Assembly (NCBI GenBank): GCA_021782205.1
Contig: JAJXVH010000015.1
Coordinates: 1 to 53,109, forward strand
From: a bacterium
GTDB lineage: Bacteria > Elusimicrobiota > Elusimicrobia > UBA1565 > UBA9628
Direction: 5' to 3'
Length of the DNA stretch: 53,109 nt
Position numbers and translations under genes: made by a program. Shown here in pieces: positions 13,627 through 26,132 of this stretch. The notes under the pieces were generated by a model. It did not search any database. It had not been told where the DNA came from and saw only the letters and a program-made list of their open reading frames with translations. Each line of letters starts with the position of its first letter. Within the stretch, counting starts at the first letter, position 1.

Positions 13627-13638
13627 TGGGTTACATTT

Positions 13639-13652
13639 GGCATTTTCATTGC
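13639..13652 (+). promoter_or_regulatory. Sigma-54-type promoter for the Usp/histidine-kinase operon
   Basis: GGCATTTTCATTGC preceded by ATTT. This is the best match in the window to the TTGGCA-N6-TTGC consensus, with GG at 13639-13640 and GC at 13651-13652. Expected start near 13664, about 20 bases before the ATG at 13684. It faces away from 13613-13626 with a 12-base gap. Confidence 0.75.
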
Positions 13653-13683
13653 GTTCATAATCCACGCCATGCGGAGAACGACC

Positions 13684-14514
13684 ATGTTTCACTTTCCCCC
13701 GCGCCGCATTCTCGTCGCCGTCGACTTTTCCAACGCTTCCGCGCACGCCCTGCGGGCGGCTAAATTGCTGGCGAAAAGCTTTCATGCGTCCTTGGAAGCC
13801 GCCTACTGCGAAGCGCCTCTCTCCGCCGAACTTTTCGCCTACGGGCCCTACGCGGAAGACCGCGAGAGCCTGCACCGCACCGTCCGCAGCCTGCGCCTGC
13901 GCGTGACCGGCGACCTGCCGCTACACGCCGGCTACGGCGAGCCCGCGACGCTGATCTCGCGCGTCGCGCGCCGGCGCGGCGCGGACCTCGTCGTCGTGGG
14001 CACGCACGGCCGGCGCGGGCTCATGCGGGCGTTGCTCGGCTCCGTGGCCGAATCCGTCATCCGCGAGTCTCCGGTGCCCGTGCTCGTGGTGCGCAAGGAT
14101 TTCCGTCTTCCGCGCCGCGTACTCGCGCCGATCGCCGAGGACCGCGATGCCGCGCGCGGACTGCTTGCGGCGGGTCTGGTCGCGCGCGCGTTCAAAGCCC
14201 GCCTCGACGTCCTGCACGTCGTCGAGGATCCCATTTTCGGCGCGAACCCGGAACGCCTGCTGTCCGCCCGCCTGCGCCGCTTGCCGCCCGGAGTGCGCCG
14301 CGACACGCGTCCGACGGCGGAGGTCAAGCTCGGACAGCCTGTTCCTGCGATCTTACGGGCGACGCGCGGCCGCGACCTGATGGTTCTGCTCGCGCGCTCG
14401 AAATCGCTGCTCGGCGACATGGTCCTGGGTACCACGGCCGAGCGCTTGGCGCGCTTCTCGCCCATACCGGTCCTCGCGATTGCCGCCGCAGCCGCGGGAG
14501 GCGGCCGTGGGTGA
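13684..14514 (+). CDS. Tandem-domain universal stress protein
   Basis: 276 residues with two UspA folds. The ATG at 13684 (MFHFPPRRILVAVDFS) is preferred over one 15 bases upstream because GGAG sits seven bases before it. The first domain keeps GTHGRRG and GSVAESVIRESPVPVLVV for ATP binding. The second is weaker (LLARSKSLLGDMVLGTTAERLARFS). It resembles the Usp at 11738-12610, so the two may be an old duplication. The histidine kinase start lies inside its last codons, showing translational coupling. A sensor kinase expressed with a Usp suggests a stress-signalling pair. Confidence 0.88.
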   Translation: MFHFPPRRILVAVDFSNASAHALRAAKLLAKSFHASLEAAYCEAPLSAELFAYGPYAEDRESLHRTVRSLRLRVTGDLPLHAGYGEPATLISRVARRRGADLVVVGTHGRRGLMRALLGSVAESVIRESPVPVLVVRKDFRLPRRVLAPIAEDRDAARGLLAAGLVARAFKARLDVLHVVEDPIFGANPERLLSARLRRLPPGVRRDTRPTAEVKLGQPVPAILRATRGRDLMVLLARSKSLLGDMVLGTTAERLARFSPIPVLAIAAAAAGGGRG

Positions 14515-15646
14515 GAACGCGGCGTCGCTCCTGCCTCTCTTCGACCAGCTTGCCGACGGAGTGTGCCTGTCCGACGACAACGGCCGGATACTCTATCTCA
14601 ACCCGCCCGCCGAGCGGCTGCTGGGCGTCGGCCTCGACCAGGTCGGCTCGACGTCGCTCTGCGACCTGCTCTGCGCGCGGCTGATCCGGGAAGACGGATC
14701 CGACTGCGCCAGCGGATGCGCGATGAAGCGGGCCGTCGGCGGCGAGACGGCGGCGACGTTCCGCGGCCGCTACGGCACCAAGCCGTTCTTCTCCTGGCAC
14801 GATGACGCGATCTCCCGCGTCGACGAGCGAAAAAGCCTGCGCGTGCGCTGCCTGAAGACCACGACGGCCTGGCTTGACCGCGCGCACCCGGGCAAGAGGC
14901 TGACCCTTATCGAGGACGCCACGGCTCAGGAAAGGCTGGACATGGAACGCGCGGACTGGCGCCACATGATCGCGCACGACCTGCGCAATCCGCTGACGAG
15001 CATCCAAGCCGTGCTGGCGTCCCTGCAGGACGACGCGCAGGGCGGCGCGCCGGTGACGCTCGATGCCGAGGCCCTGCGCATCGGCGTGTCGAACTGCGGA
15101 CGCATGGCCGAACTCCTCGATCTCTACCTGGACGTCGCCAAGCTCGACGCGGGACTGATGCCGGTCGAGGCTCGGGAGCTCGACGGCGCGCAGGTCGCCG
15201 AGCGTTGCGCGGCGCAGCAGGCGCCGCTGGCGCGCGCGCGCGCAGTGACGCTGGTCGTGCGCACGGAAGACGGTGCGCGCGTGCTGGCCGACGAAGCGCT
15301 GCTGGAGCGCGTCCTGCAGAATCTCCTCGACAACGCCGTCAAATACGCTCCGGAAGGCGGCCGCGTGGAGCTCGCTCTGGACGCGGCGTCGCCGGACTTC
15401 GTCCTTTTTCACGTGACGGACAACGGCCCCGGCATACCGGAAGAAGAGCTTCCGCTTCTCTTCGACCGCTACCACCAGGCGCGGGCGCGGCGGGAAGGGC
15501 GGACCAAGGGCACGGGACTGGGCTTGGCCTTCTGCCGCCGCGCGCTGTCGGCGATGAACGGAGACATCCGCGTGGAGTCCGCGCCGGGCCAGGGTAGCCG
15601 CTTCACCGTTTTTCTCCCCAAGGCCGCCGCGGGGGAGCCCTCATGA
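14507..15646 (+). CDS. PAS-domain sensor histidine kinase (orphan)
   Basis: 379 residues, without membrane segments. The GTG at 14507 is chosen because GGGAGG sits five bases upstream; it overlaps the Usp stop by eight bases. A PAS domain covers about 5-125, with cysteines clustered at CDLLCARL and DCASGCAMK, which could sense redox state or metal. The dimerisation/phosphoacceptor helix is at HMIAHDLRNPLTS with H157. The ATPase domain shows NLLDNAVKYAPEGG, DNGPGI and GTGLGLAF. No response regulator is adjacent. It could phosphorylate the activator at 20586-21800 or an unlinked partner. Confidence 0.88.
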   Translation: MGENAASLLPLFDQLADGVCLSDDNGRILYLNPPAERLLGVGLDQVGSTSLCDLLCARLIREDGSDCASGCAMKRAVGGETAATFRGRYGTKPFFSWHDDAISRVDERKSLRVRCLKTTTAWLDRAHPGKRLTLIEDATAQERLDMERADWRHMIAHDLRNPLTSIQAVLASLQDDAQGGAPVTLDAEALRIGVSNCGRMAELLDLYLDVAKLDAGLMPVEARELDGAQVAERCAAQQAPLARARAVTLVVRTEDGARVLADEALLERVLQNLLDNAVKYAPEGGRVELALDAASPDFVLFHVTDNGPGIPEEELPLLFDRYHQARARREGRTKGTGLGLAFCRRALSAMNGDIRVESAPGQGSRFTVFLPKAAAGEPS

Positions 15647-15720: not shown

Positions 15721-15782
15721 CCCTGTTAGCGTCAAAAGATAAATTCACACGGTCCGGGAGCACGGCACGCTGAAGTATACTC

Positions 15783-15796
15783 GGACGAATCGTTGC
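15783..15796 (+). promoter_or_regulatory. Sigma-54-type promoter for the Cyc2-like gene
   Basis: GGACGAATCGTTGC, with GG at 15783-15784 and GC at 15795-15796. Expected start near 15808, giving a leader of about 50 bases that contains AAAAGGAG before the ATG at 15859. Confidence 0.6.
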
Positions 15797-15858
15797 GTGA
15801 CACGGATCGACCGCTCGCTGTACGCGACGGCAAGCCCGCACCCAAAAGGAGATCATTC

Positions 15859-17274
15859 ATGAGCCTAACTCGTCATAACGCCGCCCGGGGCGCGTTTGTC
15901 GCCGCCGCCCTGGCCGCAGCGTGGATCGCGCCGCCCGCGGTCAGCCGCCTCATGCACCGCTGTCCCGTCCGGCCCGACGGCGTCGATCAAGCCGAGGCCC
16001 TGCCGTCCTTCGCCCGCAAGTACAAGATGTCCTGCAATCAGTGCCACTCCGGCTACCCGGTGCTCAACGCCTACGGCCGCCAGTTCAAGATGAACGGCTT
16101 CGTGCGCGACCGCTCCGGCGACGAGGGCGTGCTCAAGAGCCAGGACGGCAGCCTGTGGACCGAGGCGATGACGCCGTGGGCGGTGATCGTGCGCTCGCGC
16201 CCCATCGATAACGGCCGCGGCAACATGTCCAGCCAGGGCGCGCAGATGGGCGGGACGTCCGCGCCGAACCCGAACGGCTTCCAGATGCAGCCGCTCAATG
16301 ACGTCGACGCCTTCATCGCCGGCGGAGACGTGGCGCGCCACATCTCCTACCTGGGCGAGGTGGACGCCAATCAGTCCAACGGGTTCACCCCCGGCATGGG
16401 CGACATCCGCCTGGGCTGGCACCCGGTCACCTGGATGAACGTGATCATGGCGCGGCGAAACTTCTTCGCCGACGACCCTTATCAGACCATCGCCTCCAAC
16501 GAGTCGCCGACCATCTCCAACCGCGCGACCGACCTGCTGATGCAGGGCCAAAACTCGCTCAGCGACAACACGATGCTGACCATGCAGCAGCTCATCGGCG
16601 TCAACGGCCAGGTCCCGCTGAAGGGAGACTCGTTCCTCTACTACGCCGCGGGCGCCTCCAAGGACAGCGACCACGGCGTGCAGGGAAGCGACCCGACCAA
16701 CGGCAACATCCGCCTGGCGCTCGACAACGGCAACGGCATCATGATCGGAACCTTCGGATCCTATGGATCGGAGCGTACGACCAACGCCGGCGGCTTGGCC
16801 GACAGCAACTTGGTCAGCGGAATTCCCGCCGTGGGCAACGGCACGGAACTCGTGCAGTTCCAGCGCGGCGGCTTCGACGCGTTGTGGGAGTACAACGGCT
16901 TCGCCGCGCGCGGGGCCTTCCTGTACAGCCACGACTACGACAGCGTCTACCAGCTCAACGACACCAACAAGGCGGCGTACGCCGAGCTTGCCTACTACTA
17001 TAAGCGCGGCAACTCGTCCACGCCGTTCCTGGTGCCGCTGGTGCGCGAGAACTGGCTGACGACCTACAACGGCACTCAGCAGTTCAACTACGTGACGGCC
17101 CAGTTGGCGCACTACTTCGCGCCCAACCTCAAGGGCTTCATCGAGTACTCGGTGGACACAAAGCGCGACTACCAGAATAGCAATGTGCTCTACCAGCCGA
17201 CGCTGGCCGCCAACGGAGCGACGCTCGCGCCGCTGGGCGACCGCGTGTCGGTGCAGTTCGAAGTCGGCTTCTAA
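15859..17274 (+). CDS. Cyc2-like fused monoheme cytochrome-porin of the outer membrane
   Basis: 471 residues from the ATG behind AAAAGGAG. A hydrophobic export signal (FVAAALAAAWIAPPA) is followed by EALPSFARKYKMSCNQCHSG, with one CXXCH heme site at residues 59-63, then YPVLNAYGRQFKMNGF. The remaining roughly 390 residues are rich in alternating polar/aromatic strands and Gly/Asn turns, and end in VQFEVGF with the terminal Phe typical of outer-membrane barrels. This order matches Cyc2, the fused cytochrome-porin of iron oxidisers, where the heme plug passes electrons across the outer membrane. Direction of flow and substrate are unknown. A terminator-like hairpin follows at 17293-17325. Confidence 0.75.
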   Translation: MSLTRHNAARGAFVAAALAAAWIAPPAVSRLMHRCPVRPDGVDQAEALPSFARKYKMSCNQCHSGYPVLNAYGRQFKMNGFVRDRSGDEGVLKSQDGSLWTEAMTPWAVIVRSRPIDNGRGNMSSQGAQMGGTSAPNPNGFQMQPLNDVDAFIAGGDVARHISYLGEVDANQSNGFTPGMGDIRLGWHPVTWMNVIMARRNFFADDPYQTIASNESPTISNRATDLLMQGQNSLSDNTMLTMQQLIGVNGQVPLKGDSFLYYAAGASKDSDHGVQGSDPTNGNIRLALDNGNGIMIGTFGSYGSERTTNAGGLADSNLVSGIPAVGNGTELVQFQRGGFDALWEYNGFAARGAFLYSHDYDSVYQLNDTNKAAYAELAYYYKRGNSSTPFLVPLVRENWLTTYNGTQQFNYVTAQLAHYFAPNLKGFIEYSVDTKRDYQNSNVLYQPTLAANGATLAPLGDRVSVQFEVGF

Positions 17275-17907: not shown

Positions 17908-18369
17908 TCAGCGCGAGCGCAGGAGATCGAGGGCGGAGATCACGCCCAACGCGCACCCGTCGCGCGTCACCAGCACGCGCTGGACGCGGCGGCGCAACAT
18001 GTGCCGCTCGACTTCCTCGAGCGACATGTCCTCGGGGACCAGAACGAGGAGGCGCGACATGAGCTGGCCGACGCGCGCGGCCGGACGCGTCTGCCCCGGG
18101 TCGCGGTCCGGCTCGGCGTAGAAGTCCGCGGCGCGTTGGGAACGCTCGCGCAGATAGGCGGCCAGGTCCGCCTGCGACAACACGCCGGTTAGTCGCCCTT
18201 CGGTGTCCACGACCGGAGCGCCCGCCTGCCCGCCGTCGAACAGGCTTTTGGCCGCGGTCCAAGCGTCATCGGACTCGCGCAGGACGAGCGCCAGCGGGCG
18301 CATCGCGTCACGCGCCGTGGCCGTCCGTCGCGGCGCGGATTCAGGATTCAGAAAGCACTCCGGACTCAC
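17908..18369 (-). CDS. CBS-domain pair protein
   Basis: 153 residues made almost entirely of two CBS motifs, about 20-75 and 95-150 (AGAPVVDTEGRLTGVLSQADL and QRVLVTRDGCALGVISALDLL). CBS pairs form a Bateman module that binds adenine nucleotides and reports energy state. Stand-alone pairs occur in hypoxia and dormancy gene sets beside Usps. The GTG start at 18369 lies 29 bases inside the end of the sigma-54 gene, so the two are co-transcribed. An ATG at 18303 is possible but would cut into the first CBS motif. Confidence 0.85.
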   Translation of the reverse strand: MSPECFLNPESAPRRTATARDAMRPLALVLRESDDAWTAAKSLFDGGQAGAPVVDTEGRLTGVLSQADLAAYLRERSQRAADFYAEPDRDPGQTRPAARVGQLMSRLLVLVPEDMSLEEVERHMLRRRVQRVLVTRDGCALGVISALDLLRSR

Positions 18370-19423
18370 GCGTCAACGCATGCCGCACCGCGTTGACCGT
18401 GCGTCGCGAGATGTCGATGCCGCGCTCCACTTTAAAGCGCCGCGCGAAATCCGCGTCGGTATTGTCGGGATTTTCTCGCAGCCAGCCAGAAAGAAGCTCC
18501 TTGAGAACCCGGCGCTGCCCCGGCACGAAAGAAATCATCGGGACTTCCGGCCCCCAAGGCAGACGCAGCGTACGTCGCGCCAGCGCGCGGCTGACGGTGC
18601 TCGGCGCCAGGTCCAGGCGGCGAGCCAGAAGGCGAAGACTGACCGGGCGTAGGTCGGCATAATCGCGGCTACGCAGAAAATCAGACTGGATCGCCGAAAA
18701 CGACTCAAGAATCCGGAATATCGTGCTCTGGCGAAGGTTCAGTGTTTCCAAACGCTTGAGCAGATGGCGCAACCGCCGCCGCTCCGGCCCGGTCAGGTTG
18801 CCGGAGGATTTCCAAGATTCGATGTCATCGTAACGGACTTGGTAGAGTCCGCGCGCCCAATACGGCGAGGCGAACTCGAAGACAATCTTATCGTCCTCAA
18901 GAGCAAGCCGCGCCAGGCACGCCGCGCCGGGCTGAGTCGGAGCGACGCGCGGGGCGCCGGCGAATTCAGCTTGAGCGCCGATCTCCAAAAGCAGATCGTT
19001 GACGCGCGCGACCTCGCTTTCGCTGAGACCCGTGCGCTGAGCAATCTCGGGCAAAGTCGCGGGCTCGTCGCCGTGCAAGAAGTAGCGCTCGAAGGAAGCG
19101 CGACCCATGCGGCGAATCAGGGGCAAGACGTCGCGGCGCGCGTCAAGACTGCCTTCCACGTCCACGCGCTGGCTGGCGCCGATGCGCGATTCGTCGACGC
19201 CGTAAAAGCTCGACGACAGCCGGCCGCCGGGCCAGCGCCGCCGCCGGATGGCCGACGGCAGTCCATCAGCGCCATAGTGAAGGCGCCGAAACAACGGATC
19301 TTTTTCGACGCGTTCGATCTCGCGCGCGAATTCGCGCTCCGGCATCTCGATCCAGTCCGCCATGCGTAGGCGTCCCAAAACCGCCAGCTTCTGCTGTGCG
19401 CGAACGCCCATTTCTTGTCGCAT
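18341..19423 (-). CDS. rpoN: Compact sigma-54 (RpoN) RNA polymerase factor
   Basis: 360 residues against roughly 480 in E. coli. Region I is recognisable at about 10-48 (QQKLAVLGRLRMADWIEMPE to KDPLFRRL), where the Gln/Leu-rich activator-binding helix normally lies. The acidic region II is essentially absent. The core-binding part follows (TLPEIAQRTGLSESEVARVNDLL), then the -12 recognition helix-turn-helix (LRLLARRLDLAPSTVSRAL). The RpoN box near the C-terminus is SRRTVNAVRHAL, against the consensus ARRTVAKYR. Substitutions in the box and the short length make it a divergent member that may read a slightly altered -24 element. It is divergent from the kinase/activator pair and has a sigma-54-type element at 19487-19500. 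Confidence 0.85.
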   Translation of the reverse strand: MRQEMGVRAQQKLAVLGRLRMADWIEMPEREFAREIERVEKDPLFRRLHYGADGLPSAIRRRRWPGGRLSSSFYGVDESRIGASQRVDVEGSLDARRDVLPLIRRMGRASFERYFLHGDEPATLPEIAQRTGLSESEVARVNDLLLEIGAQAEFAGAPRVAPTQPGAACLARLALEDDKIVFEFASPYWARGLYQVRYDDIESWKSSGNLTGPERRRLRHLLKRLETLNLRQSTIFRILESFSAIQSDFLRSRDYADLRPVSLRLLARRLDLAPSTVSRALARRTLRLPWGPEVPMISFVPGQRRVLKELLSGWLRENPDNTDADFARRFKVERGIDISRRTVNAVRHALTRESGVLSES

Positions 19424-19459: not shown

Positions 19460-19486
19460 AATCCTGCGAACCCCACCCTTATCCTA

Positions 19487-19500
19487 GCAACGTTATGACC
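19487..19500 (-). promoter_or_regulatory. Sigma-54-type promoter for the sigma-54 gene
   Basis: The minus strand reads GGTCATAACGTTGC, GG at 19500-19499 and GC at 19488-19487. Expected start near 19475, about 50 bases before the rpoN ATG at 19423. It overlaps the start codon of the divergent kinase gene, so polymerase bound here could also affect kinase expression. Confidence 0.55.
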
Positions 19501-20583
19501 ACCACAGCGACAAGCTCTTCTCCGCAGGATGAGCATGCCCTAGCCCTGACTCTCTACCAGGCATTCCTTCGCTCCAACGATGTCATGTTCTACTGCGACC
19601 GCGACGGCGTCATCCGCGACGTCAATGAAGCCTTCGTGCGTCACTATGGCTGGTCGCGCGAAGAAGCGATCGGGCAGAACCCCCGCCTGATCCGATCCCA
19701 ACGCACCACCGATGAGACGTACAAAGAAATGTGGGGCCGCATCCTCGATCCAAATGCTGGCTTCTGGCGCGGCGAGTTGGTCAACCGCGCGCGCGACGGC
19801 CGCGAAGTACCGATCGTCTTGACGATCACGGCCGTGCGCGACGAGCGCGGCGAGATCGTCGGCTACATCTCCAACGGCGTCGAGGTCGGCGAGTTGCGCC
19901 ACCTCCAGGAGCGCGTCGCGCAGGCGGAAGCGCTTGCGCAGCTCGGACAGATGGCGGCGGTCGTCGCTCACGAAATCCGCAATCCGCTCGGCTCGATTAC
20001 CTTGGCCGCGCGCCAGCTCGCCAACAAGAACCTGCCGCGCGAAGACCGCGCACTCGTGCTCCAGATCCTGCGCGATGAAGGCCGCCGTCTCAATGAGACG
20101 CTGACGAACTTCCTGGCCTACGCCCGCCCCCGCGGACTGCGTCTGGAGCGCGCCGATCTCAACGTTCTGGTCGGCGACGTCGCCCGCGTCGTAGCCGAAG
20201 GGCAGCCGGACGTGCACATCGAAACCGCGCTCGACGCGGGGCTTGCGCCGTTCCAACTCGATTCCGACCAGGTCCGCCAAATCGTCTGGAACCTGGCGCT
20301 CAACGCCGCCCAGGCGGTCGCCGGCCAAGGCCGTGTTCGCCTCTCGACAGGACGCCGCGAGGGCTTCGCCCTCTTGCGCGTCGAAGACGACGGCCCGGGC
20401 ATCGCTGAATCGGCTCGGGAAGAATTGTTCCAACCGTTCAAAACCACGAAGTCGCAAGGCACCGGCCTGGGCCTGGCGATCGCCGACCGTATCGCCCGCG
20501 CGCATGGCGGACGCATCGAGGTCGCTACGTCCGACATGGGCGGCGCCACGTTCGTGCTCCTGTTGCCGACGGCCCAGGCCTGA
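19495..20583 (+). CDS. NtrB-type PAS sensor histidine kinase
   Basis: 362 residues, without membrane segments. A PAS domain spans about 22-145 (DVMFYCDRDGVIRDVNEAFVRHYG), followed by a dimerisation helix with phosphoacceptor H159 in VVAHEIRNPLGS. The ATPase domain shows NLALNAAQAV, DDGPGI and GTGLGLAIADRI. Two bases separate it from the activator gene, so they form a classical NtrB-NtrC-type pair. The PAS domain lacks an obvious Cys or His signature, so ligand and cofactor cannot be told. The pair lies divergent to the sigma-54 gene and very likely controls the sigma-54-type promoters around it. Confidence 0.92.
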   Translation: MTTTATSSSPQDEHALALTLYQAFLRSNDVMFYCDRDGVIRDVNEAFVRHYGWSREEAIGQNPRLIRSQRTTDETYKEMWGRILDPNAGFWRGELVNRARDGREVPIVLTITAVRDERGEIVGYISNGVEVGELRHLQERVAQAEALAQLGQMAAVVAHEIRNPLGSITLAARQLANKNLPREDRALVLQILRDEGRRLNETLTNFLAYARPRGLRLERADLNVLVGDVARVVAEGQPDVHIETALDAGLAPFQLDSDQVRQIVWNLALNAAQAVAGQGRVRLSTGRREGFALLRVEDDGPGIAESAREELFQPFKTTKSQGTGLGLAIADRIARAHGGRIEVATSDMGGATFVLLLPTAQA

Positions 20584-20585
20584 TT

Positions 20586-21800
20586 ATGGATGAAAAAAAG
20601 ATACTTCTCGTCGAGGATGACGGCGCTCAGTCGGCTCTCCTGGCGCTGGAGCTTAAGCGCCTTGGCTTCCGCGTCGAAACGGCGCGAGAAGCGCCGGCCG
20701 CTTGTGCGCGCGTCGAAAAGGAACTCTTCGACGCGGTCGTCACCGATCTGCGCTTGGGTGCCGGAGACGGCCTGACGGTGCTCGCTTCCGTCAAATCCAG
20801 CCAGCCCGAGACCGGCGTGGTGGTGATCACCGGCCACGGCTCCATCGACAACGCCGTGGCCGCGATGAAAGCCGGCGCGTTCGACTACATGACCAAGCCC
20901 GTGGAGCCCGAGGAGCTGGCGCTGACGCTGCGCAAGTCGATCGAACACCGCGACCTGGTCGGAGAGGTGCGCCGCCTGCGCGCCGAAGTTCGCGAACGCC
21001 AGGGTTTCGCGAAGATCATCTCCGCCAGCTCGGCAATGGAGCGCGTGCTGGAGCTTGTCGCGAAGGTGGCGGCGACCGATGCGACCGTTCTGGTGACCGG
21101 AGAATCCGGAACCGGCAAGGAACTGGTCGCTCGCGCCATCCACGAGAACTCTCCGCGCCGCGACGGCTCTTTCGTGGCCATCAACTGCGGCGCACTGCCC
21201 GAGGGCTTGCTCGAAAGCGAGCTATTCGGGCACGTCAAGGGATCCTTCACCGGCGCCGACCGCAACAAGCGCGGGCTCTTCGAGGAAGCCTCCGGCGGCA
21301 CCTTGTTTCTCGATGAAATCACCGAGACGACGCCCGGACTGCAGGTCAAGCTCCTGCGCGCGCTCCAGGAAGGCGAGATCCGCCGCGTTGGCGACAATCA
21401 CCCGGTGAAAATTTCCGCGCGCGTGGTCGCCGCGTCCAACCGCGACCTGCTGAAGCTGGTCGCCGAGGGCAAGTTCCGCGACGATCTCTACTACCGGTTG
21501 AAAGTGTTCCCGATCGCGATCCCCCCGCTGCGCGAGCGCCCCGAAGATGTCCCCCTCCTAGCCGAGTCGTTCCTGAAACGCGCACGCGTGCGCACGGGCT
21601 CCAGCGCGTCGCGCTTCTCCCCCGCGGCGATCAAGGCCCTGGGGGCCTACGCCTGGCCGGGAAATGTCCGCGAGCTGGAGCACGCCGTCGAGCGCTCGCT
21701 GATCATGGCCTCGGGCCCCCTCGTCCAGCTTTCCGACCTGCCACCCGAGATCGCCGCCCCCTCCACGCCCGCGCGTAAAAAGAAATCCAAGACAGCGTAG
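20586..21800 (+). CDS. NtrC-type sigma-54 activator lacking a DNA-binding domain
   Basis: 404 residues. The receiver domain (1-120) keeps phospho-acceptor D54 in VVTDLRLG and the Lys in TKPVEPEE. The AAA+ domain (about 140-375) has Walker A GESGTGKE, Walker B GGTLFLDE and the sigma-54 contact loop as GSFTGA at 219-224 (consensus GAFTGA). After the last AAA+ helix the protein ends in a short Ser/Lys tail (STPARKKKSKTA). The Fis-type helix-turn-helix found in NtrC is missing. Known activators of this form, such as Helicobacter FlgR and chlamydial CtcC, work from solution without an enhancer. That makes this a likely global switch for all sigma-54 promoters in the cell. Confidence 0.92.
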   Translation: MDEKKILLVEDDGAQSALLALELKRLGFRVETAREAPAACARVEKELFDAVVTDLRLGAGDGLTVLASVKSSQPETGVVVITGHGSIDNAVAAMKAGAFDYMTKPVEPEELALTLRKSIEHRDLVGEVRRLRAEVRERQGFAKIISASSAMERVLELVAKVAATDATVLVTGESGTGKELVARAIHENSPRRDGSFVAINCGALPEGLLESELFGHVKGSFTGADRNKRGLFEEASGGTLFLDEITETTPGLQVKLLRALQEGEIRRVGDNHPVKISARVVAASNRDLLKLVAEGKFRDDLYYRLKVFPIAIPPLRERPEDVPLLAESFLKRARVRTGSSASRFSPAAIKALGAYAWPGNVRELEHAVERSLIMASGPLVQLSDLPPEIAAPSTPARKKKSKTA

Positions 21801-21809
21801 GCTCCACGC

Positions 21810-21823
21810 GGTCGTTTCGTTGC
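21810..21823 (+). promoter_or_regulatory. Sigma-54-type promoter for the radical SAM operon
   Basis: GGTCGTTTCGTTGC, GG at 21810-21811 and GC at 21822-21823. Expected start near 21835, only three bases before the ATG at 21838, so the mRNA would be almost leaderless. Confidence 0.5.
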
Positions 21824-21837
21824 TATGGTAAGTCGTC

Positions 21838-22497
21838 ATGGTCTTTTACGAATTCGAGGGCGGCTTATATCTCAACATTACCAACCGCTGCCCGACGGCC
21901 TGCTCCTTCTGCGTGAAGACGCATTGGGATTGGAGCTTCCGGGGACGCGACCTGCTTCTTTCTCGCGAGCCATCGAGGCAAGAGATACTGGACGGCCTCG
22001 AAACCCGATTAACCACAACGGCGAGCTACCGCGAAGTGGTTTTCTGCGGCTACGGCGAACCGACCCAGCGACTCGACGTGATGCTCGCCGCAGCGAAGCA
22101 CGCTCGTCGCCTGCGGCCGGACATTCCCGTGCGACTCAACTCGGTGGGGCTGGGCCGTCTGATCTGTAAACGAGACATCGTCCCCGACCTGCGCGGCGCG
22201 GTCGACCGAGTCTCCGTCAGCGTGAACACAGCCGATCCCGCGCAGTGGCTGACATTGCACCGGCCGCGGCCCGAGTACCGGGCATCGGGCTTCGCCGCGG
22301 CCTGCATCTTCACCGCGGACTGCGCGGCGTCCGGACTACGCACGCGCGTCACCGCGGTGGACCGTCCGGACGTCGACCTCCCTGCCGTCGCCGTGCTCGC
22401 ACGCTCCCTCGGCGCGGAGTTCGTCGTCCGTCCCCGCCTGGAGGACTCCCCTCCCCCACGCGGCCCAATGCGCCGCAGCGGCCGAAGCGTTGCATAA
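21838..22497 (+). CDS. Radical SAM protein resembling the TatD-associated family
   Basis: 219 residues. The [4Fe-4S]-binding cysteines are C18, C22 and C25 in NITNRCPTACSFCVK. FCGYGEPTQRLD supplies the SAM-binding GE motif. Start, spacing and short length are like the family named for its link with TatD nucleases (TIGR04038), but no tatD gene lies in this window. The reaction is unknown. Ten bases separate it from a second radical SAM gene, so they are probably one operon. The tail is Arg/Pro-rich (PPPRGPMRRSGRSVA) and shows no extra cluster motif. Confidence 0.8.
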   Translation: MVFYEFEGGLYLNITNRCPTACSFCVKTHWDWSFRGRDLLLSREPSRQEILDGLETRLTTTASYREVVFCGYGEPTQRLDVMLAAAKHARRLRPDIPVRLNSVGLGRLICKRDIVPDLRGAVDRVSVSVNTADPAQWLTLHRPRPEYRASGFAAACIFTADCAASGLRTRVTAVDRPDVDLPAVAVLARSLGAEFVVRPRLEDSPPPRGPMRRSGRSVA

Positions 22498-22506
22498 ACA
22501 ACAGGC

Positions 22507-23631
22507 GTGCTTGCTCTAAAAGACACCGCCACCCCGCCGAAGCCGTTCGATTACTCATCAGCGCCGCTGCTCGTCATCTGGGAGACCACGCGCTCGTGCG
22601 CCCTTTCCTGCGCTCATTGCCGAGCCGACGCCGACCTGACTCGCGATCCGCGAGAACTCTCCACCGCGGACGGCTTTCGCCTGATCGACCAGGTCGCGGA
22701 CATGGGCACGCCGATCCTGATTCTTTCCGGCGGCGATCCCCTGGTGCGCGAAGACCTGGAGGATCTGGTGCGTTACGCCAAGAGCCGAAAGCTGCGCGTG
22801 GGTACCATCCCGGCGGCGACGCCGAACCTGACGCGCGAACGGCTGGACTCCCTCAAAGACGCCGGTCTGGACCAAGTCGCCTTCAGTCTCGACGGTGACA
22901 CGGCGCAGTCCCATGACGAATTCCGACGCACCCCCGGCGCGTTTGCGCGGGTGATGCAGGGCGTCGAGTGGAGCCGGGAGCTGGGCTTGCCCATGCAGAT
23001 CAACACCTGCCTCGGCGCGTGGAATATCGGCTCTTTCGAGCGCATCGTCGATCTGGTCTCCTCCATGCCGATCGCATTCTGGGAAGTGTTTTTCCTGATT
23101 CCCGTGGGACGCGGCGCGGCCCTGGGCGGCTTGGAGCCGGAGCAGTTCGAAACCGTTTTCGCGCGCCTGCGGCGGCTCTCGCTGGAAAAGGAATTCGTGG
23201 TTAAGCTGACCGAAGCGCCGCACTTCCGCCGCTATCTAAAGGTACTGGAAGCCGCCGCAGGAAGCGGCGCCGCCGAACGCGTGGAGCGCGCCGTCGCGCG
23301 GCCGGCCAGCGTGCGCTCAGGCCTGCGCCTGCCCGACCGCGCCGTTAACGCCGGAGACGGCTTCATGTTCGTCGATCACCTGGGCGGCGTCTGCCCGTCC
23401 GGTTTCCTGCCGGAAGTCCGCGGCAATGTGCGCGACGGCAGCCTGGCGCGCCTCTACCGCGAGGACCCGTTGTTCACGGGCTTGCGCGACCATGAGCGCC
23501 TGGGCGGCAAATGCGGCGTCTGCGAGTACCGCCAATCCTGCGGCGGCTCGCGCGCGCGCGCCTGGGCGACCACCGGCGACGCCTGGGCCGAAGACGCGTC
23601 CTGCGCCTACGTTCCCGCGACGTCGCGGTGA
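22507..23631 (+). CDS. Radical SAM/SPASM protein (TIGR04053-like, related to heme-modifying enzymes)
   Basis: 374 residues from a GTG. The SAM cluster motif is C31, C35 and C38 (TRSCALSCAHCRADA), followed by LILSGGDPLVREDLEDLV. The C-terminal region has further cysteines for auxiliary clusters (GGVCPSGFLPE, KCGVCEYRQSCGGSRARAW, ASCAYVP), a SPASM-like pattern. The opening PFDYSSAPLLVIWETTRSC is typical of the group that includes NirJ/AhbC/AhbD heme-pathway enzymes and TIGR04053. hemA and a cytochrome c gene lie close by, so a role in heme synthesis or modification is plausible but not proved. Hairpins follow the stop codon. Confidence 0.82.
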   Translation: MLALKDTATPPKPFDYSSAPLLVIWETTRSCALSCAHCRADADLTRDPRELSTADGFRLIDQVADMGTPILILSGGDPLVREDLEDLVRYAKSRKLRVGTIPAATPNLTRERLDSLKDAGLDQVAFSLDGDTAQSHDEFRRTPGAFARVMQGVEWSRELGLPMQINTCLGAWNIGSFERIVDLVSSMPIAFWEVFFLIPVGRGAALGGLEPEQFETVFARLRRLSLEKEFVVKLTEAPHFRRYLKVLEAAAGSGAAERVERAVARPASVRSGLRLPDRAVNAGDGFMFVDHLGGVCPSGFLPEVRGNVRDGSLARLYREDPLFTGLRDHERLGGKCGVCEYRQSCGGSRARAWATTGDAWAEDASCAYVPATSR

Positions 23632-23737: not shown

Positions 23738-24184
23738 CTAGTTCTTCGCTCCGACACCGGCCTCCGCGGCGGACGCGGACTTCGCGTTCGGCTGCGCCGC
23801 CGAGGTGCTCGCGGCGGCTTTCTGATCGGGCTTCGCGACAGCCGCGGTCTTCTTGCGTGCCGCGGCGTCGTAGACCAAGAAATCCGCGATCTCCTTCTGG
23901 GCGTCGTCACTGATGCCCGAGCGCGGCTTGCGGCGCATCTTCTCGACGGTCGCCTTCCAATCCTCAGGCGAAGCGACGTTCGTGTTGATGGGCCGAGCCA
24001 GCGTATGGCAGCGCGAGCACTTATCGGCGAACACCTGGTAGTTCTGCTGCTGTTCCTTGGGATACTTCGAGACGTCGATCGAATCGGGGCCGTTGTCGGC
24101 CGCATAGGTCGGGTCGTCGGCTCGCGCCGAACCGGTCCAAAGCAAGGCCGTCATGGCGGCCGCGACGATCAGAATTTTATTCAT
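23738..24184 (-). CDS. Exported monoheme cytochrome c
   Basis: 148 residues. The signal peptide is MNKILIVAAAMTALLWTGSARA, and the single heme site CSRCH is at 56-60. A Met in VEKMRRKPRSGIS may be the sixth heme ligand. The heme domain ends near 108, followed by a 40-residue Ala/Lys-rich tail that looks disordered. The size and SRCHTLARP context resemble small periplasmic class I cytochromes that pass electrons between complexes. AGGAGAGG precedes the ATG. A sigma-54-type promoter lies upstream, so it may be expressed together with the Cyc2-like outer-membrane cytochrome, for which it is a natural periplasmic partner. Confidence 0.88.
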   Translation of the reverse strand: MNKILIVAAAMTALLWTGSARADDPTYAADNGPDSIDVSKYPKEQQQNYQVFADKCSRCHTLARPINTNVASPEDWKATVEKMRRKPRSGISDDAQKEIADFLVYDAAARKKTAAVAKPDQKAAASTSAAQPNAKSASAAEAGVGAKN

Positions 24185-24232
24185 GTCCTCTCCTGGGTAT
24201 TGAGCCTACGCTCTCCGTCGACACCTTCTTAC

Positions 24233-24246
24233 GCAACAAAAGAGCC
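24233..24246 (-). promoter_or_regulatory. Sigma-54-type promoter for cytochrome c
   Basis: The minus strand reads GGCTCTTTTGTTGC, GG at 24246-24245 and GC at 24234-24233. Expected start near 24221, with a leader of about 37 bases holding the AGGAGAGG site. Confidence 0.65.
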
Positions 24247-24286
24247 GTGCCGCGGTTCCCCCGCAAATAATCGACGTATGATGTTC

Positions 24287-24298: not shown

Positions 24299-25051
24299 AT
24301 GATAAAACGACACGCCCCGCGTTTTTTCTCGGCCGCGCTCGTTGTGACGGCACTCGCGCGCTGCGTGGCCGCGCTGCCCAGCGCCCCGGACCGCCCCCAA
24401 TTCAACCGCGTCCGCGTCGGGGTACGCGATCTGTCCGCCGCCGTCGACCGCCTGAACCGTCTGATGGGCTGGACGCCCGCCTATCAAGGCAACGACCGCG
24501 TTCTATTTTCCACCGAGACCGCGGCGCTGGAACTCGACGCGACAACCGAGGACTCTACGGCCACCATCGTGCTGTCCGTCGACGACGTCGACGCGCATTA
24601 CCGCAAACTATTGGAGCGTGGTGCCACGTCCAAGGCCGCGCCGGCCGATCTCCCCAGCGGCAACCGGGAGGCTTCCATACAAGGCCCCGGGGCCCTGACC
24701 ATCGCTCTGGAAGGACCCCTGGCCGCCCCGCCCGATTTTGCCTTCACGGAGTTGCGCGCGGGAACCGGCGAATCTCCCGGTCCCGAGGACACGGTCAAAG
24801 TGCGCTACTTCGGCGCCTTGCGCGATGGCACCGTCTTCGATGGCGCTCACCGTACCGGACTGCCCGCGATGATTCCCCTGGCCTCCGCCATCCGCTGTTG
24901 GTCGCAGGCTCTGCCGCGCATGAAAGTGGGCGGACGCGCTCGTTTCGTCTGTCCGCCCGAGATGGCCTATGGCCGCGAAGGCCGCCCTCCGAAGATTCCG
25001 GCGAACGCCGCGCTGACTTTCGACGTCGAGCTATACGGCGTGATGCATTAG
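24299..25051 (+). CDS. Exported VOC-domain/FKBP-type peptidyl-prolyl isomerase fusion
   Basis: 250 residues. An N-terminal signal-like segment (FFSAALVVTALARCVAALPSA) is followed by a glyoxalase/bleomycin-resistance (VOC) domain at about 32-140 (VRVGVRDLSAAVDRLNRLMGW, VLSVDDVDAHYRKLLERG). The FKBP domain runs from about 150 to 248 (EDTVKVRYFGALRDGTVFDGAH, CPPEMAYGREGRPPKIPANAALTFDVELYGV). FKBPs speed proline isomerisation during folding of exported proteins. A VOC domain on the same chain is unusual, and its metal ligands are not obvious, so it may only bind a ligand or protein. The last four bases overlap convergent hemA. Confidence 0.82.
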   Translation: MIKRHAPRFFSAALVVTALARCVAALPSAPDRPQFNRVRVGVRDLSAAVDRLNRLMGWTPAYQGNDRVLFSTETAALELDATTEDSTATIVLSVDDVDAHYRKLLERGATSKAAPADLPSGNREASIQGPGALTIALEGPLAAPPDFAFTELRAGTGESPGPEDTVKVRYFGALRDGTVFDGAHRTGLPAMIPLASAIRCWSQALPRMKVGGRARFVCPPEMAYGREGRPPKIPANAALTFDVELYGVMH

Positions 25052-26091
25052 GCCGCGGGCGCCGCTTCGCGACGCAGTCGAGCCTTATCAAGCTGGAGGG
25101 TGCAGTCGGCCGCGGCCGAAAGAACGACGGCTTCCGCTTCCTTCTTGACCCCGGCCTTGCGCTCCATGCTTCGCGCGACGACACCTTTTAAATCGTCCAG
25201 GCCGTAGAGAAAGACGTCGGGCAGACTCGCGCACTCCGGGTCCACGTTGCGCGGCAGACCCAGATCGATGAGAAAAATCGGCCGACGGCGCCCCACCAAA
25301 CGGCGCTCCAATTCCGCGCGATCCAGCAACGGTCCGGAAGACGAGACGGAAAAGACCGCCGCGTCCGCATCCGCAAGCGCGCCCAGACCCTCCTCGAAAG
25401 AGGCGGCTTGACCGCCGATCAGCCGCGCCAGTTCCTCGGCGCGCGCGCGCGTGCGGTTGGCGATCAGCAGGCGGTTGAAGTCCTTGGCGGCAAGATGTCG
25501 GCAGACGGCCTGTGCGGCCTCGCCCGCGCCGAAGACGACGACGCGGCCGCCCTCTCGCTCGCCGAAAATGCGGCGCGCCAACAGGGCCGCAGCACCTCCG
25601 ATCGAATGGATGCCGTCCTGGATGCCCGTCGCGGCGCGCGCGGCTTTGCCCGCCGCGACGGCGCTTTGGAATATCCGGTGAAATTCCGCGCCCGCCGCGC
25701 CCGCGGCGACGGAGGCTGCGTAGGCCTTGCGCACCTGGCTTAGAATTTCGGTCTCGCCCAGAATCCAGGACTCCAGCCCCGCCGCCACGCGAAACAAATG
25801 CCCGAGCGCGTCGGCCCCCGAGCGCTCGTCGAGGTGGCGTCGCGCCTCAAGGCCCGCGCGCTCGATGAACCAGGCCGCCGTCCGCGTGCGCGCCGCCGTG
25901 GGGTCCGACGACCACCCGTAGACCTCCAGACGACTGCACGTCGACAGCAAAACAGCCTGAGTCAGACCCGCTTCGACGCGGAGGCGTCGAAAAGACTCCT
26001 CCAGCGACGCGTCCGCGCGCACCAAACGCTCGCGGCACTGCACGGAGGTCTCAAGATGATTGAGGCCCGTCACAAAAAAGCGCGCATCCAT
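25048..26091 (-). CDS. hemA: Glutamyl-tRNA reductase, C-terminally short
   Basis: 347 residues. Reduces glutamyl-tRNA to glutamate-1-semialdehyde, the first step of C5 tetrapyrrole synthesis. The catalytic domain starts at FFVTGLNHLETSV, with nucleophile C52 in LLSTCSRLEVYG (Ser replaces the usual Asn after Cys). The NADPH domain shows VVVFGAGEAAQAVCRHLA and LLIANRTRARAEEL. The usual dimerisation domain (about 70-80 more residues) is cut to a short helix. The start at 26091 fits the family start and a sigma-54-type promoter at 26106-26119; an ATG further upstream adds 14 atypical residues. No other hem gene is adjacent. Confidence 0.9.
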   Translation of the reverse strand: MDARFFVTGLNHLETSVQCRERLVRADASLEESFRRLRVEAGLTQAVLLSTCSRLEVYGWSSDPTAARTRTAAWFIERAGLEARRHLDERSGADALGHLFRVAAGLESWILGETEILSQVRKAYAASVAAGAAGAEFHRIFQSAVAAGKAARAATGIQDGIHSIGGAAALLARRIFGEREGGRVVVFGAGEAAQAVCRHLAAKDFNRLLIANRTRARAEELARLIGGQAASFEEGLGALADADAAVFSVSSSGPLLDRAELERRLVGRRRPIFLIDLGLPRNVDPECASLPDVFLYGLDDLKGVVARSMERKAGVKKEAEAVVLSAAADCTLQLDKARLRREAAPAA

Positions 26092-26105
26092 CAAGACATA
26101 CCACT

Positions 26106-26119
26106 GCAACGCATATGCC
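26106..26119 (-). promoter_or_regulatory. Sigma-54-type promoter for hemA
   Basis: The minus strand reads GGCATATGCGTTGC, GG at 26119-26118 and GC at 26107-26106. Expected start near 26094, three bases before the ATG at 26091. Confidence 0.5.
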
Positions 26120-26132
26120 CAACCCCGGCCCA

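Follow-up and report, generated by a model that had tools for sequence, protein, structure and literature searches.

A gene for a Cyc2-type fused monoheme cytochrome-porin, located in a 53,109-nt stretch of Elusimicrobiota DNA (the window), probably encodes a Cyc2-family conduit for electron uptake that is not expressed constitutively but is induced through an NtrB/NtrC pair and RpoN. Electron uptake is probably switched by a signal, because the only RpoN detected and the only sigma-54 activator of the genome, together with sigma-54-type sites, adjoin the Cyc2 gene. The link between Cyc2 and sigma-54 is well supported and is unreported in the literature that we searched, which contained no pairing of Cyc2 with sigma-54 control and mentioned the two together only in work on RegB/RegA in A. 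ferrooxidans.

The open reading frame (15859..17274, forward strand) runs from ATG to TAA and encodes a protein of 471 aa with a hydrophobic N-terminus. Keffer et al. (PMC8406198) define Cyc2 proteins by the motif AXPXFAR[Q/K][T/Y], CXXCH, PXL, a minimum length of 365 residues, and a porin resembling OprO/P. The window protein carries ALPSFARKY at residues 47–55 (15997..16023, forward strand), which corresponds to the Cyc2 consensus AXPXFARKY of the same study, followed by the heme-attachment motif CNQCH at residues 59–63 (16033..16047, forward strand), with PXL 4 residues downstream (CNQCH-SGY-PVL); at 471 aa, it is longer than the required minimum. A first-pass annotation, made from the DNA alone, had described a Cyc2-like fused cytochrome-porin with a single CXXCH and a terminal Phe. 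Both features are present (CNQCH is the only CXXCH, and Phe the C-terminal residue), the protein contains EALPSFARKYKMSCNQCHSGYPVLNAYGRQFKMNGF exactly as quoted there, and the overall description is borne out by the motif, the single heme, the length, and the homology to a porin family. The reference proteins of iron oxidisers, namely Cyc2 of Mariprofundus ferrooxydans PV-1 and Acidithiobacillus ferrooxidans and Cyt572 of Leptospirillum (PMC8406198), share with the window protein a signal sequence, AXPXFAR[Q/K][T/Y], one CXXCH, PXL, more than 365 residues, an OprO/P-like barrel, and a C-terminal aromatic residue. The window protein differs from them in an additional leader, constant in length, in which a conserved Cys-Pro precedes the AxA site, and its locus differs in the sigma-54 elements and activators nearby.

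Judged by its sequence, the window gene is a real member of the Cyc2 family. Matches were found in 36 of 341 Elusimicrobiota genomes, the genome of the window included, with identities of 30–89% and with paralogues in some; in the window's own genome, this gene was the sole relative found. Two orthologues, L002 and L003, encode proteins 87% and 89% identical to the window protein, respectively. Differences between the window gene and the two orthologues at codon positions 1/2/3 number 41/31/92 and 47/38/97, and this prevalence of third-position differences points to purifying selection on the reading frame. A tree of 34 sequences, in which the comparison proteins were plasmid-borne proteobacterial homologues (from Caballeronia, Paraburkholderia, Methylocystis, Acidithiobacillus, Ideonella, and Polymorphobacter), united the window protein, L003, and L002 in one group (support 100/100), which falls in an Elusimicrobiota clade of 20 (100/100), separate from the proteobacterial group. 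A search of viral contigs for relatives found none, and a match in Obscuribacterales (L004) was ruled out, as it lies inside an unrelated open reading frame and none was found in that genome.

On a Paraburkholderia plasmid (L036, 1–10000), the Cyc2-like gene has genes for a hemerythrin and for a universal stress protein nearby, and in L035 a gene for a high-potential iron-sulfur protein adjoins it. On Acidithiobacillus ferrooxidans plasmid CP084173 (L059), the Cyc2-like gene is annotated as hypothetical and is followed by a c-type cytochrome gene; a match with identical figures was found on an Acidiphilium cryptum plasmid.

The cytochrome motif is the most conserved part of the Cyc2-like proteins, and the cytochrome module of the window protein matches its counterpart in the plasmid-borne proteobacterial homologues at E 8e-23. 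The barrel region (16273..17271, forward strand), which ends in EVGF, was assigned by a profile match to Porin_O_P (PF07396) proteins. A profile built from the barrels of the 20-sequence group aligned with these proteins over 258–280 columns, collinear to the last residue, at E 6e-10 to 8e-10, while reversed and column-shuffled profiles used as decoys reached only E 0.07–0.85, i.e., no match. The window barrel group thus resembles the OprO/OprP phosphate-selective porins, on which the published Cyc2 barrel was modelled (PMC8406198), by profile-profile match to the C-terminus, whereas OprO/OprP porins lack a heme module and the Pfam model itself gives no detectable match to the window protein. 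A fused porin of OprO/OprP type, as in Cyc2, is therefore supported, and the strand-rich region described in the first pass would be the barrel of such a porin. Sequence searches of Pfam, NCBIfam, and the PDB with the window protein and profiles returned no useful match, a simple beta-amphipathicity test of the barrel region was not significant, and an AlphaFold model from a three-sequence input, sought for a 16-stranded barrel with an N-terminal heme plug, had a pLDDT of 25. Barrel similarity between the window protein and the proteobacterial Cyc2-like proteins compared is low: with an E-value of only 0.005, a common barrel of Elusimicrobiota and Proteobacteria found no support at the sequence level. 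The proteobacterial barrel set reached no better than E 0.1 against Porin_O_P; both values are perhaps this weak because that set comprised six sequences only. With one heme and a cytochrome fused to its barrel, the window protein is not of the Mtr/Mto/Pio porin-cytochrome type, in which a multiheme cytochrome sits inside a large, separate porin.

The leader that precedes the AXPXFAR motif (residues 1–47; 15859..15999, forward strand) consists of a hydrophobic stretch and the segment W-x-x-PP-x6-H-x-CPVRPDGV-x-QAEA, ending in an AxA cleavage motif, with spacing conserved among homologues. Its consensus reads W-[ILV]-x-PP-x6-H-x-C-P-V-R-P-x-G-[VI]-x-x-A-x-A, in which the Cys is nearly invariant. 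Length and spacing are nearly fixed in 26 leader-bearing Elusimicrobiota homologues, despite divergent barrels in other clades, and conservation among six far homologues is 0.69 in the leader against 0.41 in the barrel. A DNA pattern coding for CPVRPDG was confined to Cyc2-like genes in 44 family genomes, and the Cys-Pro leader of fixed length is restricted to Elusimicrobiota among the homologues. The residues at –3/–1 suit signal peptidase I in every case. The signal peptide proposed earlier thus stands as to its hydrophobic stretch and AxA site but is of an unusual kind, as the predicted cut falls about 16–20 residues past the hydrophobic stretch, after the conserved, Cys-bearing segment. 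A heme-binding role for the Cys-Pro is speculation. L027 carries the leader, yet groups with the proteobacterial proteins when the leader is omitted. A further-reaching reading, to which we lend only tentative credence, would take these features to mark a distinct, sigma-54-switched Cyc2 system that evolved in Elusimicrobiota. In it, the single sigma-54/activator pair of the genome would be a dedicated redox switch for a chain of electron uptake made up of the Cyc2-like conduit, the partner cytochrome, heme synthesis, and an oxidase, with the leader as a lineage-specific module for export or heme sensing placed on cytochrome-porins of independent origin, L027 included.

Downstream of the Cyc2 gene lie the components of a sigma-54 system. 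A divergent RpoN (18341..19423, reverse strand) was identified by its Sigma54_DBD domain and by a genome search, in which PF04552 had this one match in the whole genome. At 360 aa the protein is short, and its score of 62 bits, against the TIGR02395 cut-off of 277, comes from the C-terminal DNA-binding domain alone; generic helix-turn-helix models match at the expected site of the core-binding domain. Next to it, Pfam domains identify an NtrB-like PAS histidine kinase (19495..20583, forward strand) and, with a receiver and an AAA+ domain, an NtrC-like activator of sigma-54 (20586..21800, forward strand). The latter is the only match to PF00158 above 200 bits in the genome; the other matches, all below 45 bits, were rejected as activators and are ClpB-like and other AAA+ proteins. 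The sole RpoN detected and the sole true activator are thus both encoded within 5 kb of the Cyc2 gene. In the activator, the receiver, AAA+ domain, and lid are present, and a search for a DNA-binding domain found none even at E 1, as would suit a genome that has no other activator. Sigma-54 activators of the FlgR/CtcC type likewise lack a DNA-binding domain and act on flagellar genes. The window activator resembles them in this respect, and in belonging to a genome with a single activator and one RpoN, and differs in that its proposed targets are redox proteins rather than flagella.

The association extends across the phylum. Of 19 Elusimicrobiota genomes, 9 have an activator gene no more than 10 kb from a Cyc2-like gene, against 0.32 expected (P 3e-12, which assumes independence; close orthologues are not independent, and the excess persists without them). 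In L039, L049, L053, and L054, NtrB/NtrC-type genes stand directly upstream of the Cyc2-like gene, and in G217 and G211 the activator at the Cyc2-like locus differs from the one beside rpoN.

Candidate –24/–12 elements precede several genes of the cluster. That of the Cyc2 gene, CGGACGAATCGTTGCGT (15782..15798, forward strand), lies 76 nt before the ATG. Its –24 box is degenerate (CGGA instead of TGGC), and the position matrix alone gives p 0.3–0.6; a test of the spacing therefore served as a control independent of the matrix. The spaced pattern GG-N8-TTGC precedes the Cyc2 gene of the window and its counterparts in L003 and L002, the three close orthologues. Counted within 130 nt before a gene, it occurs upstream of 8 of 13 cluster genes (XFP, Hr2, USP2, Cyc2, RpoN, rSAM1, cytc, and HemA) and 4 of 60 background open reading frames (Fisher p 4e-5, an optimistic value, since the pattern was picked post hoc, after the first hits had been seen), while GG and TTGC at spacings other than 8 occur at a frequency of about 6%. 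The orthologous clusters carry it before 6 of 8 genes in L003/L097 and 5 of 6 in L002. Further elements lie before the USP2-histidine kinase genes (TGGCATTTTCATTGCG, 13638..13653, forward strand; strong and conserved in L003 and L002), rpoN (TGGTCATAACGTTGCTA, 19485..19501, reverse strand; similar in L003 and L002), the radical-SAM pair (21809..21825, forward strand; similar sites in L003, L096, and L038), the c-type cytochrome gene (CGGCTCTTTTGTTGCGT, 24231..24247, reverse strand; conserved in L097), and hemA (GGGCATATGCGTTGCAG, 26104..26120, reverse strand; conserved in L097). The p-values of individual sites apply to single regions.

The strict pattern TGGCAY-N5-TTGC has 4 sites in the 3.09-Mb genome, against 5 for a reversed-pattern control. 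They lie before the USP2-kinase genes, 74 nt before coxB (TGGCATATTTTTTGC), before a pilin-like gene, and inside a cysK-like gene on contig C92, the last of which was rejected as chance. Conserved control of coxBA is only partially supported, as G195 and G202 have a weaker site before coxB. Strong sites precede Cyc2-like genes of other families, namely TGGCAAAAATGTTGCT at –55 in L039, TGGCATTATTGTTGCT at –93 in L045, and TGGCAAGAATGTTGCG at –74 in L052. G229, a natural negative control without RpoN or a true activator, yielded no site, and in several RpoN-bearing relatives (genus g9) neither a site nor a nearby activator was seen. The sole RpoN, the sole activator, the conserved –24/–12 elements, and the phylum-wide association together lend support to the sigma-54 control claimed in the first-pass annotation and, of its hint at regulated extracellular electron transfer rather than constitutive iron oxidation, to the part on regulation. 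We infer that these promoters are active in the cell.

The gene order runs USP1, hemerythrin, USP2, PAS kinase, Cyc2, a small open reading frame, CBS, RpoN, NtrB, and NtrC, followed by two radical SAM proteins, a monoheme cytochrome, FKBP, and HemA. Among the genes compared, L003/L097 show the same order, as does L002 up to the contig end. The universal stress protein USP2 (13681..14514, forward strand) has weak NCBIfam UspE/UspF/UspG matches and is by inspection homologous to the other USP of the cluster. Its gene overlaps that of a PAS histidine kinase (14480..15646, forward strand; Pfam), whose PAS domain is rich in Cys (CDLLCARLIREDGSDCASGCAMK) and is perhaps a redox or metal sensor. A CBS-domain protein (17908..18309, reverse strand; Pfam) recurs beside Cyc2-like genes. 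The radical SAM pair comprises a TatD-linked protein (21838..22497, forward strand; TIGR04038) and a radical SAM/SPASM protein related to the heme b synthase AhbD (22507..23631, forward strand; TIGR04053); relatives of the latter, akin to the heme enzymes AhbD and NirJ, recur near Cyc2-like genes in several genera. The monoheme periplasmic c-type cytochrome (23738..24184, reverse strand) is the proposed electron partner, and at 15 of 19 other loci a relative of it is encoded no more than about 1 kb from the Cyc2-like gene. Finally, a glutamyl-tRNA reductase, HemA (25048..26091, reverse strand; TIGR01035, above cut-off), belongs to heme synthesis.

Elsewhere in the genome, A-type coxBA lies on contig C53 and a cbb3-like oxidase, assigned by inspection, on C92. 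An ActA-like hexaheme protein (C44, also by inspection) is encoded beside two relatives of the window monoheme cytochrome. The first-pass annotation had asked for a check for multiheme cytochromes, and the genome does hold them on other contigs: a short-gap pattern matched nothing, and a wider one recovered two open reading frames with 7 and 8 CXXCH motifs on C103 (L127 and L128; G000:C103, 43–48 kb). On this basis we favour a route from Fe2+ or another small donor via the Cyc2-like heme and a monoheme cytochrome to an oxidase or Complex III.

The family signature, the single heme, the porin homology, the sole RpoN and activator, the conserved elements, and the neighbours can all be read in the DNA itself, and the mechanism that we propose would run as follows. 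An exported monoheme c-type cytochrome module would plug an OprO/P-type porin barrel in the outer membrane. A small reduced donor, most likely Fe2+, would enter from outside and give an electron to the Cyc2-like heme, which may pass it inward to a periplasmic monoheme cytochrome, e.g., the product of 23738–24184, from which Alternative Complex III and/or the oxidases of aa3 and cbb3 type would receive it. Through the NtrB-like PAS kinase and the NtrC-like activator, the cell would switch on RpoN promoters of the Cyc2 gene, the partner cytochrome, hemA, the radical-SAM pair, rpoN, the USP2-kinase genes, and coxBA. A change of redox state or oxygen would presumably be the inducing signal, leading to joint induction of heme supply, cytochromes, oxidase, and stress proteins.

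Iron is a plausible substrate of the window Cyc2, and one may ask whether the protein is simply an ordinary Cyc2 iron oxidase, supporting lithotrophy whenever Fe2+ is present, with the sigma-54 genes as mere housekeeping neighbours. This is how the gene has been read in "Elusimicrobia bacterium isolate MAG 13", whose locus L003 (JABEUV010000114) holds the 89% identical orthologue in the same gene order. That this genus (GWA2-66-18) has Cyc2 is already known and not new, since a Cyc2-like protein has been published for this isolate. According to the passages on MAG 13 in PMC8357290, this member of Elusimicrobiota genus GWA2-66-18 encodes a Cyc2-like cytochrome, three terminal oxidases, and nitrogen fixation, and was found in abundance in acid mine drainage rich in Fe(II); its oxidases and this habitat also accord with the uptake mechanism proposed above. 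The regulation, leader, barrel family, and neighbours are not mentioned in those passages. The Cyc2 signature and the weak –24/–12 element of the gene itself agree with an ordinary iron oxidase, but activators are associated with Cyc2-like genes across the phylum, spacing-specific elements occur in three close orthologues, and strong sites occur in other families. Moreover, lithoautotrophy appears unlikely in MAG 13, because it is scored without carbon fixation in the same passages. We therefore consider this reading unlikely.

Less likely again is an outward conduit, in which electrons would flow from quinol via Alternative Complex III and a monoheme cytochrome, then exit by way of the heme plug and reduce an acceptor outside the cell, giving a stressed cell a redox safety valve. 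The stress proteins, hemerythrin, and phosphoketolase nearby would suit this role, as would the ActA-like hexaheme protein that adjoins relatives of the same monoheme cytochrome. Precedent exists in Geobacter sulfurreducens, whose RpoN regulon places cytochromes of extracellular electron transfer, e.g., OmcB, which serve Fe(III) reduction, under sigma-54 control (PMC2725144); cytochromes are linked to sigma-54 in both cases, and that of the window is a monoheme cytochrome-porin. However, one heme in a small barrel is ill-suited to solid acceptors, the characterised Cyc2 proteins are oxidases of dissolved Fe2+, and the sigma-54 site of coxBA suits oxygen respiration. A gated porin or heme/redox sensor, in which the heme module would plug an anion-porin-type barrel and open it or signal upon redox change, accords with the grouping of the barrel with phosphate-selective porins and with a regulon resembling a stress response, but is very improbable given that the gene is tightly linked to that of a soluble monoheme cytochrome and to promoters of heme synthesis and oxidase genes, and that no part is better conserved than the cytochrome motif.

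Cyc2 genes extend far beyond the known iron oxidisers, and whether they signify iron oxidation is a question raised in the Cyc2 literature. The leader described here is a possible marker of Elusimicrobiota cytochrome-porins. The sigma-54 wiring proposed for the inducible conduit argues against concluding from cyc2 that lithotrophy is constitutive. Once found, the signal that activates the kinase would tell when, and perhaps for what, this uncultured lineage takes up electrons.
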